Origin: a virus
DNA: 20,367 nt
Strand: one strand, 5' to 3'
Virus record (IMG/VR): IMGVR_UViG_3300030107_006356
Span: 1 to 20,367 of that record
How positions within the stretch are numbered: position 1 is the stretch's first letter; the number at the start of each line of letters is the position of its first letter. Positions 2,931 through 18,600 of the stretch are shown in pieces. Below the pieces are notes generated by a model, which worked only from the letters and a program-made list of their open reading frames with translations, was not told the DNA's origin and did no database searches. The position numbers and the translations under genes were made by a program.

Positions 2931-3045
2931 ATTAATAGCCCTTATAATAGGTATATTGATGTGTTTTGCAGACTTTTGGTCAGGCTTCTACTTCATTGTC
3001 GCATTACAGATAATGTTGTCTTATTACGACATATTTAACGATTAA
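2923..3045 (+). CDS. Putative 40-aa single-pass membrane protein
   Basis: A GTG at 2923 overlaps the end of the previous gene and opens 40 codons, ending with TAA at 3043-3045. The product is mostly hydrophobic: LRLIALIIGILMCFADFW (residues 2-19), then GFYFIVALQIMLSYY (21-35), ending DIFND. It would form one long or two short membrane helices. Such micro-proteins at the end of phage operons are sometimes holins, spanins or superinfection-related proteins, but nothing here selects among these. There is no clear ribosome binding site, so expression would depend on coupling to the 76-aa gene. An internal ATG (2959) would give 28 residues. Its stop abuts the stop of the opposite-strand 1202-aa gene with no spacer. 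Confidence 0.45.
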   Translation: MLRLIALIIGILMCFADFWSGFYFIVALQIMLSYYDIFND

Positions 3046-6000
3046 TTAGTTATCTAAAATATACTCTAACCCAGGCTCTAAACCAGCCCTGATACCTTTA
3101 CCTATAAAATTCATACCACCAGTTACTGGTACTGACATATTTGTTATATGTCTTGCTAAGTCCCTCATTTCCCCAGTCATTGCTACTAATACCCCTAAAA
3201 TAAAATCAAATCCTAAATTAGGTAAATATCCCATCATAGTTTTCCTTCCATAATACTGAAGAAAATTAACCCAGTCTTCTTCGTCAGGTTCATCCTCTCC
3301 TGTCAATCCACCCCATAACATAAATTTCAAACTTAAAGTCATAGGTAACATCATCCAACTCATAGCATCAGATGTTATCGAACGAGTTTGTTTAAATCCA
3401 ACTATCCATTTTACCATATTCCTTGTTCCTGGTATTCTTAAGAAAGGTGACATTAAAACATCCCAAACTAAAGTTATAAATCCTGTTAAAGCAAATAAGT
3501 TTCTAACTTGTGCTACAGCAGGATTAACAGTTCTTTGTTTTCTATGCCTACCTGTAGCGTAATGTGCATAAACCCAAGGAGTCATAGCTCCACCAGGTAA
3601 ACCAGCCTCATAAATTAACTTCAATACAGCTTTTATGTCAAAATGCTTTAAAAATGTTCCTTGACCTAAAATCTTCTTATCACTCTTCATACTATAATAA
3701 GCTTCTTTTATTACTCTAAAGTGCCTTCCTGTCTGTTGTTGGGAAAAATATTTAAACTTACCCATCAAATTTCCTAATCCATTCCAATTCATTTGTCCTA
3801 CATCTTGTGAAGATAATCCAAAATTAGTAAAGTTAGAAAAATTAACTCCAAAATCAAGAGCTTTATCAATCATCTCAGGGTCAGTATATTGCCACCAATT
3901 TGCAGAAGTATGTCCAGGTAATAAGTTTTGTTTTTGCATTCTATTCAAACCTATGATAAAGGATATTGTTCTTACAAACGCTTCCCCATCACTCATAACA
4001 AACCATTTATTACCTTTAATCATATCACTATATGTTTTTACAATATTTTGAATAGGCATTTTAATTAAAGCACCTGGTTTCTTAATCCAAGGTAATTTCT
4101 TAATGCCTTTAAAATCTAACATTTTATTAAATTCTAATTCCTTAGTAATAGCCCATTGAACAAGTCTATTTGTCCAGTATTTTGTTCTATCTTTTCTAAG
4201 TTCCATTTGTTTTTCTTTTATTTCACTAATATTTTTAATTTCAATATCTTTTGCTTTCATAAAAGAGCTTGAATTAGAAAGAATATTTGAAACATTATCA
4301 GTAAATATCTTTTGAGCATCTGCTAATGATGTTCCCTTCTTAATAAGATTGTGATACATAACCATTTCATGCAATATAGCATCTGCTGTTTTATTTTCAA
4401 CTTGAGCTTTTAATAAACCATTAACTTGAGCTCTACTAAAGAACTCATTAAAACTTGTAATACCAGAATCACCCACCATTTGCTCAATCAATTCATTTCT
4501 TTTGCCTAACAATATAGGCTTATTATCCTCACCTAAAATAAGTTGACCAGTTTTTTCATCTATTCGATATTCTAAAGTATCGTCACTTAATATATTCCAA
4601 GCACTCATTAGTTGGTCCATACCATAATCTGAAACATTCTGATAAGCACCACTTACATTAGTAAGAGCTGTACTTATCTCACTTAGAAAACTACCTGATA
4701 AAAAACTACCAACACTACGCATTGATTGGTTTACTTGTCCTGGACTTCTTTTTACTTTATGCACACCTGGTATTAGGTTAATTCCTTTATTAAAAAAATT
4801 AACTACATTAGTTACGCCTTCAGTTGTAATTCCACCTGGACCTCTTAAATCATCTGGAGCAAATGGTACTTTATATAAATTAACTGCTGTCTCTATCAAA
4901 ACATCTCTTGTATTGTCATTATCAGCTTTAAACGCTAATCTCATAGATTCTAGCAAATGCCCTGTCAATATATTTCTTTCTACTGTAGACATTATTTGTC
5001 TTAAATAATCATTATAAACAGCCTTTTCAGCTCTTGTATGTCTAATATCATATGCATTACTTATTCTTTTAGCATACTTATTGTGACTTGCGAAAGGTAT
5101 AACTATATCATTTTGTTGGTCATAACCATACTGTCCATTATAACCTTCTTTTTGTCCTTCTAAAGCACGAATACCAGCCTGTAAGCCAGTGATTTGTTTG
5201 TCTAAATTTTTCTTACCCTCTACACTTAATTTGTTAAACTTATTGGGATTATCCATAATTCTCATCAAACTTAATGTTTTTAATCTCATTCTTTCTAAAG
5301 TACTATCAATCATAAATGTAAAGTTATCTTTATTATATCTTATTGGCCAGTGATTACTTCTTTTTTCAGCAGTAGCTCCTGATTCAAGAACAAACTCATC
5401 GTTTATATTCATACCGAAGATATTTTTAAACCTTTTAATCATTTCTACTTCATCATCAGGTAGATTAGGTATAACCTTTTTAGCTAACTTACCACCTAAA
5501 AATATAGCTCTTAATTGTTTGGTAGTATATTTATCATTAAACATTTTAGACATCTTCTCTAATAAAAAGTCAACAGATTTTTTCATTTCCATTTCCATAT
5601 ATTCGAAAGCAGCATCATCTATTTTTCTTCCTTCTTCAGCATAATGAAAAAACTTACCTTTTTGTGAATCATTTAATTCTAAATACCAATCTCCCTTTTG
5701 TCCTTCAGGAGGAGTATATTCTTTTAAAGGTACAGGTTCGTGGAAAGAATATCTTACTTCATTAGTTTTTGGATAAAATTCAAATTGACCTTCAATATCA
5801 TTACCTTCATTATCTTTTTTGTTTATCGGTCTCCAATCGCTATATATCATAAATTGTTTGGTTTGCTCATCATAATAAATCCATCCCATCATATATCTAT
5901 GAAATAATGCATCTGCTCTATCTTTAGCATCCAAAATTCTTCTACCATCTATTGTGTTAGTATAAAAACCATTAATATTAACAATCTCGGTAATACCATC

Positions 6001-6654
6001 AAGAACTTGCTGCATATTCATTGAAAGCCTTTTGTCATCTCCAGTTTTATAGCCCAATATTCTATTTAATTTTTTGTGGTTTGAGAAAAATAACTCAATT
6101 CTAGCACCAGTGTTAGTAGCATATTTTGCAACCTTTGTTGCTATATTGTAATAAGAGCCAGTTGGGTCAGCTAATCCAACCTGCTTAGGTGTTTTAATCT
6201 GCCTTATAAGACCACCAAAATTTCCTGTAATAAGTCCTGTTTTTGTAACAGCTCCTGCCATATCTAATACAGCTTGCATAATAATCTTTGTTGTCCCTTC
6301 GCTCATTGCAGCAATATCAATTTTACCATCTATAAAATAAGTATCTCTATCAATATGTTGTTTAATAAAATCATTAGCCATTAGTTTTATTCCAGGATTA
6401 GCACTAATTACAGCATGTATTATAGCTGCTCTTGCTTTTCTTATATTTTTCTTACCATACATTTTATCAAAAGTTTCGTCAAGTACTTCACCAGGAATTA
6501 ATTGCCCTGCTGAATAATCTGCAGCTAAGTATTCTCCAACAGGAGTAGATTCATCTACAATTAACATATCTGCTATAGCATTTAAATCTTTTATTTCTTG
6601 AGTATCTTTTATAATCTCTTTGTTAGCTCTATTTATTTTGCATGTTTCACTCAT
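3046..6654 (-). CDS. Large virion-type protein with C-terminal membrane segments, 1202 aa
   Basis: This gene follows the giant polymerase gene through a TAATG overlap (6652-6656), with AAAGGA just upstream of its ATG, so the two are made together. The first ~650 residues are mixed helical, soluble-looking sequence. The middle (about 640-960) includes FLSGSFLSEISTALTNVSGAYQ and aromatic stretches such as FGVNFSNFTNFG. The last ~160 residues hold three hydrophobic segments, about 1050-1069 (LFALTGFITLVWDVLMSPF), 1100-1116 (LPMTLSLKFMLWGGL) and 1145-1161 (FDFILGVLVAMTG), separated by an acidic turn (EDEPDEED). The architecture resembles the C-terminal membrane-like regions of phage polyvalent or ejected internal virion proteins. 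I infer a companion cargo protein that helps the polymerase cross the host membrane. I see no enzyme motif. The family assignment is uncertain. Confidence 0.7.
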   Translation of the reverse strand: MSETCKINRANKEIIKDTQEIKDLNAIADMLIVDESTPVGEYLAADYSAGQLIPGEVLDETFDKMYGKKNIRKARAAIIHAVISANPGIKLMANDFIKQHIDRDTYFIDGKIDIAAMSEGTTKIIMQAVLDMAGAVTKTGLITGNFGGLIRQIKTPKQVGLADPTGSYYNIATKVAKYATNTGARIELFFSNHKKLNRILGYKTGDDKRLSMNMQQVLDGITEIVNINGFYTNTIDGRRILDAKDRADALFHRYMMGWIYYDEQTKQFMIYSDWRPINKKDNEGNDIEGQFEFYPKTNEVRYSFHEPVPLKEYTPPEGQKGDWYLELNDSQKGKFFHYAEEGRKIDDAAFEYMEMEMKKSVDFLLEKMSKMFNDKYTTKQLRAIFLGGKLAKKVIPNLPDDEVEMIKRFKNIFGMNINDEFVLESGATAEKRSNHWPIRYNKDNFTFMIDSTLERMRLKTLSLMRIMDNPNKFNKLSVEGKKNLDKQITGLQAGIRALEGQKEGYNGQYGYDQQNDIVIPFASHNKYAKRISNAYDIRHTRAEKAVYNDYLRQIMSTVERNILTGHLLESMRLAFKADNDNTRDVLIETAVNLYKVPFAPDDLRGPGGITTEGVTNVVNFFNKGINLIPGVHKVKRSPGQVNQSMRSVGSFLSGSFLSEISTALTNVSGAYQNVSDYGMDQLMSAWNILSDDTLEYRIDEKTGQLILGEDNKPILLGKRNELIEQMVGDSGITSFNEFFSRAQVNGLLKAQVENKTADAILHEMVMYHNLIKKGTSLADAQKIFTDNVSNILSNSSSFMKAKDIEIKNISEIKEKQMELRKDRTKYWTNRLVQWAITKELEFNKMLDFKGIKKLPWIKKPGALIKMPIQNIVKTYSDMIKGNKWFVMSDGEAFVRTISFIIGLNRMQKQNLLPGHTSANWWQYTDPEMIDKALDFGVNFSNFTNFGLSSQDVGQMNWNGLGNLMGKFKYFSQQQTGRHFRVIKEAYYSMKSDKKILGQGTFLKHFDIKAVLKLIYEAGLPGGAMTPWVYAHYATGRHRKQRTVNPAVAQVRNLFALTGFITLVWDVLMSPFLRIPGTRNMVKWIVGFKQTRSITSDAMSWMMLPMTLSLKFMLWGGLTGEDEPDEEDWVNFLQYYGRKTMMGYLPNLGFDFILGVLVAMTGEMRDLARHITNMSVPVTGGMNFIGKGIRAGLEPGLEYILDN

Positions 6655-9600
6655 TATTTACATCCTTTATCTACCATATTAAGTGGCTCATATTCCATTT
6701 TTCTTGCTTTACCAACAACTTCTGACCTTAATGCATTAGCTTCTAAGTTATATTTATCATAAAAAGCTTTCATAAAACTAGGCTCTAAAGTAGTTTCTGC
6801 CCAAGAGTTTTTATTTACAGTAGGTATACTCCCAGCAAAGTTAGCAGAAGTAACAATTTCACCTCTAACATTTTCAAGTGGAAATCCTTGCATAAAATGA
6901 TAAGTAGCAGCAACTCTAGCTACATTACTTAAACCATCATAAACCTTACTCCACTTTATAGTATGTTGCTCAAAGTCTCTAGTATCTTGAGTTCTAGAAC
7001 CTACAACCTTCGTTTTGTTTAAAATACTATAATAATCTGAACCCATATTTTCAGCATATTCAATACCTTTTTCAATTTCAGAATCTCTGTACTTAGTTTC
7101 AGTTATATCTTTCCCATCTTTCATTAATGCTCTATTGAAAAAGTCTTTTCTTTTTAAAGTCATATATTCCATAGCTAAGTTGTGAGCATTTCTATGAACA
7201 TTGACAGAAACTTGTTGAGTACTTCTTGGACTTTTGTCTAATTTGTGATGATAAACTATATCATTATAAACTTTTGCAGGTGCGGTAGCTATAAGTTCAT
7301 CTATAGCCATTGGCTGTTCATCTACTTGAGTTATACTCATTTTAGTAGTAGGAGCAAATATAATGGTACCTTGAGCATTTTGAACATTCTTTAGAGTTCT
7401 TGGTCCCCATCTTTCGGAAGTATGTTCTACTAAACCAAAACTTTCAAGAAACATTTTATCGTAAATTGGAGCCGAATCAATACTTTTTTGTCTCTTAAAT
7501 CCTTTAGGTGCTGTTCCTCCTGTCTTATAACCCATTTCTTTTCCAACCTCAAGACCCCAAATATCAGGACCATATTGTCCTCCACTTATTATTATTCCAT
7601 CTTGATTAAAATTCTCTAAGCCTTTCTTTAATATGTTTTTAACATCAGTTTCTACCATACCTTGTCTTGAACCTGCTATATTAATAGATGTTAAATTATT
7701 ACGCGCTATCCAATCAGATAGTTCTTCAGCTGTTGGGTTGACAATTACAGCTTTATTATTACCTTTTTGTATTTCCTGTAAAACATACCTATAAGTTAAT
7801 CTAGAACCAGTAGTTTGAATAAAAGCTGATTTAGTATATATACTTTCTGAACCTCTTATATCATCGATATTTTTAAAATCAACTTGCAATCCAAAATCAT
7901 TCATTAATTCACTTCTATATTCAACAAACTCTAAGTACTCTTGACTAGCCTGTAATAGGGTCGTAGATTTTAATCTGTTCCTAGTTCTATTTAAACCACT
8001 TCTTATTCTTGCTGCCTTTTTAAAATTGCTTGAAAGGTGTTTTTTGATTAGCAGGTAATGTTCAAAAGATATAGGTTTTTTTGTATCAGCATATTCAAAG
8101 ACTTTGTATAATACTTTATCTCCTCCAGATATAGCAGTGTCTTCCGATATTAAATAAGGTCTAAAATCCCACTCATCTAAAAGACCAAATTTAGCATTAT
8201 CCATAGCTGCTTGAGCCCATATTCTCATATAAGTTTCTATATCACCCTCCCATGCACCTTTTTTACCCTTGTAAGTACCTTGTTTATGCTGAACTTTTTC
8301 ATTAGGTTGTTTTATTCTGATAACTCTTCCATCAATTTTTAAATCTTCCATTACAGAAACAAATGTACCATAAGTAGATTGAACATTTACTAACTCACCT
8401 ATAGCACTATAACCAGCACTAAATGCATATATTAAATCATTTCTACCATCTGTAGATAGTATAGAATGACCTTTAGAATCTTTATGGACCCAATCAGGTA
8501 ATGAAATAGCTTCTACTTTTACATCACTATAGAAATCTCTAAATGCCATTGTTACATTATCGTTTGCAGAATTGTCTCCCATTAATTCAATGTGTGCAGT
8601 ATCTCCATCTCCATCAGCCTCTAATTTAACTTTTACATCTATATAGTTTAAATCTACTAAACCTCTACCATTATGCATTGAAACAACTCTAGCCATATAT
8701 ACTCCACCCTTGTTATTAACAGGGTATCTTGATACTTGTACATAGATAGGATTTTCTTTTAACCACTTATTTACAGATTCTATACCCTGTTTATAAGCAT
8801 TATTTCCAGTTTTTTCTTTATACAATCTTCTTATAAATTTAGAGCTTCTAAAAGATAACGAAACTTCACCTTCATTTAATTGCCCTGTAACATCTCCTCT
8901 TATCTCAAAAACTCCACCATCAGAGAACTCAAGTTTCATTTCAGGTTCAAGTTTCTTTGTAAAAAGCATTACATCATTTTTTGCATAAGTAGTAGGGTGT
9001 ATACCTGAGTTTAATTCTATGTGCCCATAAGCGTAAGGCATCCAATTTTCAGCGTCTGACATATTTTCTTCATTATACCAATTTTGCATAAGTTGTGGGA
9101 TAGATTTATTATCATTTGGAATACCAAGCATATAAGCCTGTTTCAATCCTCTTATCATTTTTTTGTAATAATTATTATAAAACACTTCTCTAATAGCAGG
9201 GTCGTGTATATAATTATAAACTTGAATACCATGGCCTACTCCATCTGTATCTTTATCATCATACTTAGTAAAGCCTATACTAGTCCCAGGTAATATTAAA
9301 GAGTTGTCATTAACATCAAATAAACCACCTATTTTAGCTTCATCTTTAGTCACAACCATATCAACATATTTACCATCAGCATCATAAATGTTTCTATTTT
9401 CATCTATTGTAAATAAAACCTTTTTAGTTTTTTTGTCTCTAATAACAAAGTTTGCTTTAGGTATAACATGCTCGTGTTTTATAGCAACTATATCCTTACC
9501 TTCTTTATGATATATAACAGTCTTAGCCTTGTTTGCTTGATATAGTCCGTGAGATGTTTCAAAATTATTAAACATACCTTGAGAGGTTAATGAGTTTCCA

Positions 9601-12600
9601 TCTAATATATATACATCACCTAATCCTTTAATATTTCTAACTGCAGAAGTTACCCAGCTTCCATCTTTAGCGGCAAATTCTACATTATTGTAATCAAATC
9701 TATCAACCCTAAAAGAAGGCATCATTTGACTTACAGTAACTGGCGTAAATGGGATTTTGAGCCTGTCGTAAACATTCGTGCCTCCTTTAGGGTCGTTTAA
9801 ATAATAAGGATAAATTTCCTTTACAGCTTTATGAACTGCTATATTTTCTGCAACTTCTTGCTTGCTCCCACTTATTAATGCATTTATTTTTGCAACAGCA
9901 GTTAATCTTATATTCTCAGCAACATCTTTACCATCATCTTTTATATATCCCTCAAGTTCTTCATTAGCAAAATAAGCTAAAGCATCTTCTGCATCTTTTT
10001 TATCTTCTTCAGTAACATCTACAATATACAACATTCCTCCATCACCTCTTGCAAATGCAATGGCCTTATCTGCTTTTCTTAATTTTTTAGTAAAACCTTC
10101 TAAAAATTCTTGTGTATACTTTTCAAAAGTTTGTCCAAATATAGGTATAGGTTTTAACTGTTTCCCTTTTTCTGTTTGAACTTCTTTTTTAATAAGCTCA
10201 CCTTGAGCATTTCTTACAAAGCCTTGATTTTCATATATATCGCTATCACTTAACACATAGTAAATTCTTTCATCATCTTTGTAATTCATTTCATATAATG
10301 TGTTTTTTTCAAATGTATTGTGAGTTTGTCCTGTATGTGGATTTTCTGGTCCTTTTAAATCAATCTTAACATTTTTAAGTTTCATTACTGAACTTTCTGG
10401 TGTTTTCACAAGATACTTAGTAATAAATAAGTTATTTTTTTGATTTCTCGTACCAACTTGTTTACCATCAACTAAAACAATCTCACCGTTTGTTGCAACA
10501 CTTGAATTAACCCTATTGTAATGTTTAATCAATTCTCTTAAATTCTCATTAGTAAAATAACTGCTTCTTTTATTTAATTTTCTTGCAACAAATTCTACCC
10601 AAGTATCAAACCTGTCTTTATGCGTCCCTAATTTATCATTTTCAAAGTGAATTTTAGCTTCAAAATTAATATCTCTAACTGCAGCTGCTGTAATATATAT
10701 ACCTAATCCACCAAACACCATCTTATCATCTATTGATAATTCTTTTTCATCTGTTCCTTTTCTTTTAATAGTATACATATCGTGAAATTCTTGGTCATTA
10801 GCCCAACTAACAACCCTACTGTCCATATCTTTATTGTTCATCCATCTTTTATAATCAGGGTCACTTTTTGCTGAATAGCCCATTCTTTCGTACTTTGCAT
10901 GATTTTTATTAAACCATCTTTCAAATTCGCCCAATAACTGAGTAGGAAGATTTTCTAGCATACTTGCTCTAAATTTATTTATTTCTGCTTTTCCTCCAGA
11001 TTTTCTTTCTTCTTCAGGTAATCTCTGAACTTCTTCCCATGCAGTAGTGAATGCAGCATGTATTTCTTGAACTTTTTCTGTTCTAACAGATAAATCTCCC
11101 AGCTCTATAGCTCTTTGCAGTTTTCTGTTAACTTGCATTCTTGTGTGAGGTATAGTCTTTTTATTATTTTCACCATCTAATAGTTTCTGATGTCTTTCCC
11201 ATCCTTGACCAGTAATTTTATCTTGGTTTTTAATTTTAACTTGATAGTAAGTATCGACAGCTCCAGGAGGAATGACTTTTCTTATAGAAAGTCCCAATTT
11301 TTTTTGATTCTTTAAAACTTTGCTCATACCTTGAGTATACCATATACCAGCAGATGGAGCATATATTTTAGGCATACCATCATTATCTAATTTAATAAGA
11401 TTATCTTTTGTTAATTGAACTTGCCCAATTCTACCATTATTGTTATATATATCGTATTCCATAGCTAAAAATGCTTCAAAAGGACTTTTTTCAAATAGAC
11501 CTTTTATTACATCAACTTTATTACTAACAAAAAAAGTATGCCCTTTTCGTCCAGACATATTTTTTAATTTGCCTCCTGTTGTTGTTTCATAATTTTTTAT
11601 TGCATCACTTACAATTTTTTTCATATTAGTCATATCAAATAGATTTTCAAAAATATACTTTCCATTTTCTTGTTTAAAAAGACTTGCTAACAAACCATTA
11701 TAAACAATTCCTCTTGGAGTTTTAGAAAATACTATTGGCGTATTTGTTTTTTCTGCTTCATTCAAAATTGACCCTTCAACTGTATTTGCTTTATTTAAAG
11801 AACCGTAATCTCTATTAGTTGTTGAAATAGCTTCTTTAAACCACATTGCAAGAGACCCTTTTTTAAGGTCATTTATCATTTTTTCGGTAAGATGTTCAGT
11901 AGGGTTTAATTCTATATATTTAGCAACAAAAGCATTAAGCCCTAACTTATTTCTTAACTTTGAATCTAAAATTGTCTTATTTAAAAAAGGAGAAAACATA
12001 TCCCATGCTGCTTGAATTTCATCGTTGTATATCCTACCAGCTCCTTTATTACCTTGAATATTAGCATTAGAAGCACCATCCGCAATATAAATATTTCCAT
12101 TTTTTTGAACAGCTGAACTAGAATGAATAATTGAATGGATAATATTATTTAAGAACCATTTATTATTTTCTTTAATACCTATATCTACAATATGAGAAAG
12201 CAAAGGAGTCTCTTCGGTTTTTGCAGCTTTGTCGGATTGTTTAAAAGTTAATGCAGATATTAATGCAGGTAAATGCAATCTATTATATCTATCAGTATAA
12301 TGCTCAAAACTAGCACTTATCATTGAATTTAATAATTTATTAAAAGGCTTTTTACTTGCATCATTTTCTTGTAATGTTCTGAATAAGCTAAAATTATCAC
12401 GCATTTTTTTAGTGTTAAACTCACTTTCTTTCAAGCCTTCTAATCCAGAAAGAATTACATTTTCAGACCTTTTGATACCCCTTTTTAAATTATCATACAA
12501 ATTAGCTTCAGAACTCTCATCATAAACATTAAATGATTGTTCTTGATATGCTGATTCGTCAATTGCTGTAATAAGTGTGCCACTATTTATTTTATTGTAA

Positions 12601-15600: not shown

Positions 15601-18600
15601 CCTTCCATTGTAATATGGCTAATTAAATCAGTTTCGGCTATTAATTCAGACATAACAGATTCATTTATTTTTATATTTTGTAAACCACTTTTGTTTGCTA
15701 TCATATCAGCTATAGCATCTAGAGAAGTATTTATATTTAAATCTTCAGCGTATATGTCATTTATATTAAGAATTTTTTTAGCAGCATCTTGACCTATTAG
15801 TTTAGCAGTTAAAAATCTACCTGTAGTACTTAAAGTAACCTTGAAATCATTAATTGATGTATCAAGTATTTCTCTTTGGTCTAATTGTTCAGAAAGCATA
15901 CCATCTTCTGCCCACTTTAATTTATTGAATTTGAAATCTAATTTTAATTCAAACATCTTATAATACTCTTTTATCATTACCCACAACTTTGTAGCAAGTT
16001 CATAAAAGGTATTGTTCTTATGTTTGGTTTTAGCAAGTTTTTGTAAAGTAAAAGCCAAAAGCTCTTCACCCCAAGAATCTTCATCATATTTTATTTGAAT
16101 TTTTTTAAACCTCTCAGCACCCTCTTTAGTTCTAAGTATTTTATCTACCAAACTTTTAAATAACTCGTTGTTATTTATTTTTAAATCATATATAAAAGGA
16201 TGTGAAAATTCATGAAAAGGAGATTCATCATTTATTAAATCTAAATTAAAATATACAATGCCACCCTTAATCCATGCTCTACTACCTTCTTTATCTTTAG
16301 GGATTAGCTCAGGGTCTTCTATAATTCTATATTGTATTTTCCCTTCAAAAGTTTCAAATAGTGCATCCATTATAGGTATTAATTTTTCTTTTTTATTTCT
16401 TCTTCTAACGTCTATTTCCGCCTGTTGCCTAGGGGTTAAAGTAGAACCTAAAAATTGGGCTGTTTCTGCATCTGACATATCACCTATTTCTGTTTCAATA
16501 TCAAGTATTTTTTCTTCTCTTTCAAACTCTGTTTTACTTAATTTTTTTTCTTCTTCTGTAATTCGTTCTTTCCAGACACCTTTTTTTATATTAGCATCTA
16601 TATTTATTTGAGCAAATTCAATAGCTTCTTTTATTGTTGGAATACTTCCAGCTGTAAAAGTGTATCCAGTCCTTTCATCAACAACGTGATAACCTGTCTT
16701 CTCTTTATATACAAAAAACTTTCTTTCAGTATTTTTTAATTTAACCCTTTTACCAGAAACTCTTTTAGGACCATCATTGGTCATTGTTCTAAATTCCTCA
16801 TATCCTCTTTTATGTTTTAAAACTTCATCCTGATTTGTAGTTTTTACTTTTTCGGTTTGAAGGTCAAAACCTGCCTTTTTAGAAGGTTTTTTATCCTTCC
16901 CTTTGCTTAACATCTCTTCGACTTTTTCTGAGTCTTTTTGCACCTTTTTGTCTGTAGGAGGCTTACTATCTGCAGGGGCTGTTGGTGGTGGAGTTACTGT
17001 TTTTGTAGTAGGTGGAGTTTTAGCTTCTGTATCTTCAACAATAGTTTGGCTAACAGGAATATTAGCTAGTTTAGATTCATAATCTTCAATAATCTGTTTA
17101 ATTGAATCAACCTGTTCGTTTTGTCCATCAAAATAAATACCTAATTTTTGATAAAATTGGTCCTTATTGATACCTAAATCTTGTAAAATTTGAGGTCTTT
17201 CTTTTATAAGGTTTATAAGTGGTTCAGGATTGGATTCTAATTCATCATTTAAATTTAAACTTTCTTGTTGTTCTTCCCATATTGTTTCTGCTTCTCCTTT
17301 TGTAAACCCTGCACCATGGTCTCTTATATCTAAACCCATAAATCCAAGAACCATTATATTTTCTTCACCAGCTTTATTGTATTTTTCTATTTTTTGGCTA
17401 ACATTATCAGTATCATCAGTCTCGACTTGTTCGCTAATATCTTTATCAAACCACTCAACTTCTTTTTCAATCTGTTCTATACCTCCATGAGATTCAGCGA
17501 TTTTCTCCATATTAGCAATATAATTTTCATATTGAGTTTTTAAAGTTTCTGCTTCTTTTTTGTTTAATTCTTTTTTGTGTCTATATATAATATCACCATC
17601 TTTAGATTTGATGATAATTTGTTTTTTACCTTTAAGTGTCGGTTTTTTACCCTTTTTTGTAGCAGGTCCTTCTACTTCATAATCTATTACTTCAACGCTT
17701 CCACCTAAACCTTCTTTCATATTAACTACATCTAATTTTTCCATCTTAGCAATGTAAGATATTTTTAATGCTTCTGCTACCTTAAACGCTTCTTTAAATG
17801 TTTTAAATCTTGTTTTAATAGGTTTTCCAGTTTGAGGGTCAGTAGCAGAATCTCCTTTTAATTCAAATCTATTTTCGTAATCAGTTCTTCCTGTAGTTTT
17901 AGGAGTTACACCATCAGCTTCGTAAATTAGTTCACCATTTTTATCTGTTTGATATTCAGGAGGAGCTTCGTATATAACATATTCGTTAGCTTTACCTTTG
18001 GTTTTAACTGTTTCAACAACTGGTGTATTTGCCCCTTCTCTAAATGCAAACTTTTTGTCTCTCCAATTAATATATCTTGAACTGCCTTTTATACCTTGAA
18101 CAGGACCAGAAACTGAACCTATAGACATAGCCCCAAGCATACCACCTACAAAATCAGTAAGAAATTCTTCTCCTCCATATGAAAACTCTTTAAATCCTTC
18201 ATCTTTCCAGCCCCATGAGGCAAAAGTTTGACTACTTAAAGATTGTAAAACTTCCTCTACACCCTCAACAATACTCCCAGCCACAAACTTTGTACCTGTA
18301 CTTGCAACTTTACCTAAAAGATGTTTTCTTAAAACTTTATCACCTCTTATTAATTCTCTATAAGTAATATCACCCATTCTCTTCATCATAGCATTATAAG
18401 TCATTAAACCAGGTAATTTTTGAAGTTTTTTAGCAACCATACCCTTACCCATAGCGATTGTGTTACCTGTCGCTATATCAAATATGAGTCCAGCAGATAA
18501 TTTTTCTATATAACCATTAACAACAGCGGTAGCAATTGTAGCCATAGTAGAGGCATCTATAGCATCATCATCGCTCATACCTTTTCTATACAAACCACCA

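Follow-up and report, generated by a model that had tools for sequence, protein, structure and literature searches.

The question raised by this locus is whether a very large phage protein contains an RNA polymerase (RNAP) of the double-psi-barrel kind, and what such an enzyme would do for the virus. The window, a viral contig of 20,367 bases considered over its whole length, holds an intact open reading frame (translation table 11) on the minus strand that encodes a giant protein of 4490 amino acids (aa; table 1). The original prediction placed an RNAP active site at 8150–9660 and proposed that the phage packages and injects the enzyme. It relied on three short motifs, RYP, DGDGD and DNAK, and each was found at the predicted residues of the intact frame, with DGDGD at the end of KLEADGDGD (residues 3834–3842). 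DNAK is indeed present at 3976–3979, but a second copy lies at residues 2496–2499, outside the conserved region. In shuffles of the giant protein D.DGD alone occurs in 8.6%, and R.P followed 25–50 residues on by D.DGD in 0.4%; since the single motif is not rare, unlike the pair, relatives were needed for a decisive test.

Table 1. Features of the giant gene and its neighbour, in window coordinates; residue numbers refer to the giant protein.
Feature	Position	Strand	Evidence
Giant protein carrying RNA polymerase, 4490 aa	6654..20126	-	Intact ORF, table 11; relatives 1.5–3.8 kaa
Zincin-like metallopeptidase candidate, HEFSH at 1305–1309	15927..16337	-	tblastn to relatives; HExxH position in relatives
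Conserved RNAP region, residues about 3050–4110	7797..10979	-	tblastn coverage, up to 38 loci; AF2 and Foldseek
Beta-like barrel (DPBB-B) candidate, residues about 3503–3622; DG 3509–3510, K3535, K3550-H3551, D3595-E3596, K3598	9261..9620	-	Invariant columns; model strands
Beta-prime-like barrel (DPBB-A), residues about 3737–3848	8583..8918	-	Model strand pattern, invariant motifs, Foldseek
R-x-P motif (RYP), residues 3800–3802	8721..8729	-	Motif positions; invariant in alignment
Catalytic metal-binding motif DGDGD, residues 3838–3842	8601..8615	-	Motif positions, invariance, R-x-P spacing
Candidate bridge helix, long helix 3892–3925 with GxxAIGExxN	8352..8453	-	Model helix 873–906; motif comparison; HMM-HMM
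DNAK, residues 3976–3979, inside family motif LQAAxDNx(K/E); crAss-like RNAPs have A(F/S)VDN(A/V)K	8190..8201	-	Alignment
SLOG (cpYpsA-like) domain, inserted ahead of the conserved C-terminal part; not found in 30 relatives searched	7341..7862	-	Pfam PF12694 E=5.7e-11
Conserved C-terminal part, residues about 4275–4480, possible clamp element	6687..7304	-	tblastn, up to 17 loci; alignment to L085 C-terminus
Helical partner, 1202 aa, directly downstream of giant gene in relatives	3046..6654	-	tblastn; AF2 mostly helical

Relatives and the conserved active site

By tblastn the RNAP region has no match among 50,697 phage records. Close-relative scans of viral contigs with full-protein or domain queries found no RNAP relative, and neither did such queries against PDB sequences, where no significant sequence-only match to solved RNAPs was obtained. 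PHROGs and NCBIfam gave nothing useful for the giant protein, Pfam detected a SLOG domain only, and the C-terminal 1990 aa retrieved only SLOG-type proteins from plasmids by tblastn. The pattern ADGDGDTA was discarded as a means of finding relatives, all 13 of its loci being unrelated. To Pfam, NCBIfam, PHROGs and BLAST against those phage records the family described here is invisible, and it was found by motif spacing and fold only.

Written as a degenerate DNA pattern, R-x-P, 34 residues and A-D-x-D-G-D occur in 61 viral stretches, six of which align to the giant protein over 430–1075 residues at 24–32% identity (E down to 3e-79); five of these six also carry the 1202-aa neighbour. A second search, derived from the six-sequence alignment, used only [LY]EADxDGD and the LQAA-DN stretch and recovered 35 loci, 34 viral and one in a Flavobacteriales MAG, with a few near-duplicates among them. 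Because R-x-P took no part in this second search, its fixed spacing in the newly found members was not imposed by the method. A scan of viral contigs with the crAss001 RNAP gave only four relatives. The result is a family of about 35 viral sequences, unlabelled until now, and it is a new RNAP family. On one contig, L113 (NHFY01000017.1), binned to the Flavobacteriales MAG TMED123, the giant gene has a relative that is accompanied by the beginning of the partner gene; this hints at the host without proving it.

The window and 30 relatives, the latter 19–34% identical to it, were aligned. Among the residues invariant in all 31 sequences (window numbering) are D3509-G3510, K3535, K3550-H3551, D3595-E3596 and K3598, together with R3800, P3802, D3838, D3840-G3841-D3842, Q3972-A3973 and D3976. 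From the arginine of R-x-P to the first aspartate of D-x-DGD there are 38 residues in 31/31 sequences, compared with 39 in 13/13 crAss-like sequences, and 29 of the 31 also have an AxxDN (DNAK-like) motif further on, at +118 to +144. The residue between the first aspartate and DGD varies freely across the family (G, Y, F, N, S, Q, A or H). Conservation by tblastn covers residues about 2950–4110 and 4275–4480 of the giant protein, so the polymerase does lie at 8150–9660 but runs well past those limits.

These patterns bear on two readings in which the motif is not a working active site. DGDGD resembles calcium-binding loops in composition, and the R.P and D.DGD pair does turn up in that 0.4% of shuffles; both would suit a surface calcium-binding loop accompanied by R-x-P through coincidence. 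We reject this reading, to which we give a practically negligible chance, on the invariance of D-x-D-G-D around a position free to vary, the fixed spacing from R-x-P and the fold matches described below, the significant ones being RNAPs. The extreme divergence of the family would also suit an RNAP that has decayed, lost its activity and been retained for a structural or ejection role; this is very unlikely, as all 31 sequences keep the catalytic aspartates and the lysines although they have changed at most other positions.

Predicted fold and known polymerases

An AlphaFold2 (AF2) model of residues 3020–4140 (pLDDT 79.8, pTM 0.79) was compared with the PDB by Foldseek. The best matches are QDE-1 (E=1.2e-10), the phi14:2 virion RNAP (6vr4; 1.9e-9) and P23-45 gp64 (1.2e-5), followed by P74-26 gp62 and then the large, beta-prime subunits of cellular RNAPs. 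In a viral library, unnamed proteins come first (A0A516LSI3, E 4.6e-68, TM 0.76), and Crassvirales proteins and P23-45 gp64 come next. The PDB superpositions have large rmsd and modest TM-scores (0.35–0.44 for the best two families), which means that the chain as a whole is arranged differently or that the model captures just part of it. In the model R-x-P stands at the end of a strand, and the aspartates occupy a loop between a helix and the following strand. This is the arrangement expected from the NADFDGD motif of cellular beta-prime.

The DxDxD motif of a two-barrel RNAP is thus found in a beta-prime-like double-psi barrel, on the grounds of invariance in 31 sequences and the fold match. 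Preceding it is a strand-rich region with conserved basic residues, K3535, K3550 and K3598, as expected of a second barrel; these are candidate equivalents of the catalytic lysines. The candidate bridge helix spans 34 residues in the model, and its motif can be aligned to GKSGVGITAN of phi14:2. These matches argue for a two-barrel (DPBB-type) RNAP within the giant protein, with which the invariant aspartates and lysines and the long candidate bridge helix agree, and the two outcomes that the original prediction had named as fatal, the lack of a barrel fold and a calcium loop, are not borne out. An HMM-HMM comparison with crAss-like RNAPs, which it had also proposed, places both conserved blocks in register, but weakly (E 0.05 and 0.002) and as two alignments rather than one; this split follows from the roughly 115 additional residues that phi14:2 has between the blocks.

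The Crassvirales virion RNAPs (phi14:2, 2180 aa, 6vr4; crAss001 gp50; versions of 4.4–4.8 kaa in Suoliviridae) share with the present family a single chain, two barrels and giant sizes, as well as the order R-x-P then D-x-D-x-D, GxxxxGxxAN and VDN(A/V)K. The interval from GxxxxGxxxN to AxxDN is 68 residues in the window and 66 in phi14:2 (GKSGVGITAN to AFVDNA), whereas from DxDxD to the bridge-helix motif the present family has about 115 fewer residues, and there is no BLAST-level similarity. The family has DxDGD where Crassvirales have DFD(I/V)D, with the spacing of 38 rather than 39; the DxDGD motif that the original prediction gave for crAss-like enzymes does not hold for phi14:2, which has DFDID (1361–1365).

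QDE-1 (2j7n), the RNAi polymerase of Neurospora and best Foldseek match, likewise has two barrels in one chain, but it is cellular, 11% identical and not part of a giant fusion. Around the active site the best local sequence match is Thermus phage P23-45 gp96 (RNPVMGHGGALLQARV / DFDGDT), with an alignment better than 496 of 500 shuffles. This protein, an RNAP fused to a tape measure protein in 5002 aa (PMC10770324), also combines a two-barrel RNAP and a metallopeptidase domain in a giant chain. In gp96, however, the RNAP is N-terminal and the tape measure has membrane domains, whereas the present RNAP is close to the C-terminus in every member, the window included, and not at the N-terminus of a tape measure protein; hydropathy detected no transmembrane-like segment in the giant protein of the window, and a relative's genome looks podovirus-like.

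The suggestion that sheer size, beyond that of the phi14:2 enzyme, might denote a new architecture does not survive these comparisons, as single-chain two-barrel RNAPs in giant phage proteins are already known. Crassvirales RNAP genes encode up to approximately 6000 aa (PMC10136315), annotated coding sequences overlapping the RNAP in Crassvirales cr4_1, cr1_1, cr50_1 and cr10_1 run to 4460–4774 aa, and gp96 exceeds the window's protein. The main idea of the original prediction is right, and the kind of system is already known; what is new is the family, its missing annotation and its presence in a phage whose relative differs from crAss001 in packaging and capsid genes.

Gene order and the proposed role of the polymerase

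Nearly all relatives encode a protein of approximately 1.1–1.4 kaa after the giant protein. In the window this is the 1202-aa partner, whose AF2 model has no PDB match and which has no Pfam match; near its N-terminus lies an invariant cysteine (C5). Homology of the partner to phi14:2 gp76 was considered and set aside, the match being weak and confined to the C-terminus (E=0.03) and the model lacking a PDB match. Elsewhere in the window, 469–1251 encodes a 260-aa protein of phrog_1221 (E 1.6e-16) that also occurs in Arthrobacter and Streptomyces phages and a few crAssphages.

The giant gene and its partner of approximately 1.2 kaa are convergent with replication genes in both the window and relatives. 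In relative G001 (54,180 bp) the order is TerL, portal, MCP, further late genes, giant protein, partner and then convergent replication genes including DnaB; the pair closes the late operon, and the ends of the record fit a permuted map. In phi14:2, gp76 (1421 aa) and gp77 (2180 aa, the RNAP), annotated as structural from virion proteomics, similarly end the structural block and meet the replication block end-to-end. For crAss001, mass spectrometry of virions revealed the RNAP-associated gp47, gp49 and gp50 (PMC10172136).

The TerL, portal and MCP of G001 belong to phrog_38, phrog_156 and phrog_1328, and are not of the crAss type; their crAss001 counterparts are phrog_6681, phrog_6547 and phrog_11589, although the crAss001 portal also matches phrog_156 weakly. 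The crAss001 MCP found nothing in 16 relatives. Crassvirales membership is rejected on these three genes of G001 and not on the window itself: judged on this relative, the phage is probably not strictly crAss-like, and the gene content of G001 suggests a podovirus-like lineage of approximately 54 kb outside Crassvirales.

Computation thus gives the fold, the conserved active-site residues, the family and the gene order. We consider it probable that residues approximately 3050–4490 form a single-chain, two-barrel, DNA-dependent RNAP that is packed in the virion, ejected and used for early transcription. The three aspartates of D-x-D-G-D in the beta-prime-like barrel would hold the catalytic metal ions and the beta-like barrel would supply the invariant lysines, while after the barrel the long helix would serve as bridge helix and the DNAK block as the start of the trigger region. 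RNAP activity and transcription of early genes are likely. The giant protein would be made late, enter the virion together with the 1202-aa partner and be ejected with the DNA, whereupon the RNAP would transcribe the convergent early and replication genes until the host RNAP takes over. Packaging and injection are plausible by analogy, as the gene order matches that of the virion cargo genes of phi14:2 and crAss001. A search for a shared early promoter, as 10-mers between the genes of the window and of seven relatives, found none clearly beyond shuffles, in a weak and underpowered test.

An active RNAP could also be made after infection, for middle or late genes, and never packaged. P23-45 has such a non-virion two-barrel enzyme (PMC10770324), gp64, which is among the fold matches. 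We think this improbable: gp64 is a 616-aa early protein, whereas the present RNAP belongs to a giant chain that also has a metallopeptidase motif, like gp96, and in a relative the giant gene ends the late operon on the strand opposite to the replication genes. Injected cell-like RNAPs for early transcription are documented in a few phage groups, and the present family suggests that a set of small-genome, uncultured phages does likewise.

Accessory domains and further giant proteins

Intact relatives of the giant protein are 1.5–3.8 kaa long, the window's 4490 aa being the longest seen. Twenty of 24 intact relatives have HExxH upstream of the RNAP. R-x-P is 467–571 residues away from the C-terminus in intact relatives; in the window, which has the SLOG insertion, the distance is about 690. 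Among the window and the 30 relatives searched this insert occurs in the window's member only; the Pfam cpYpsA match covers residues 4179–4261. The halves of the cpYpsA profile are swapped in the insert (63–134, then 1–75), a permutation relative to the model.

In the giant protein of G001 (L085:4643–4819, residues 932–990) there is an FtsK gamma DNA-binding domain (Pfam E=5.5e-25), which resembles that of the L113-bearing Flavobacteriales MAG; neither the window nor any other viral relative searched has it. Leptolyngbya phage Lbo-JY46 (L002:11539–19785) encodes a 2748-aa hypothetical protein with two HExxH motifs, no D.DGD motif and a weak match to the metallopeptidase region of the window (E 0.2).

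Large polyvalent phage proteins (PMC5512222) are likewise very long and multidomain, with metallopeptidase and SLOG-type accessory domains; the present family differs in that its conserved core is an RNAP and its accessory domains vary among relatives. It is speculative that the metallopeptidase upstream sets the polymerase free or is directed against proteins of the host. A more elaborate picture seems doubtful, namely a clade of virion RNAPs in small (approximately 54 kb) podovirus-like phages outside Crassvirales, with protease and polymerase in one chain, in which the metallopeptidase may release the polymerase after ejection and the SLOG insert peculiar to this member may be a sensor for a nucleotide-type ligand at the C-terminal part of the polymerase.

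With the conserved-motif alignment, proteins of this sort can be annotated and the deep diversity of two-barrel RNAPs can be sampled. The active-site block is shared, in register, by further giant phage ORFs (L022, L027/L035/L046, L028/L037, L041/L053 and L050/L081; E 2.5e-8 to 0.011), and giants of this type therefore appear widespread. The families of L022, L027, L028, L035, L041, L046, L050, L053 and L081 are probably further undescribed giant RNAPs. Their ORFs are approximately 1000–3000 aa long, many being cut by contig ends; in them R-x-P and ADxDGD are the same distance apart as in the present family, and several also have an HEFAH motif.
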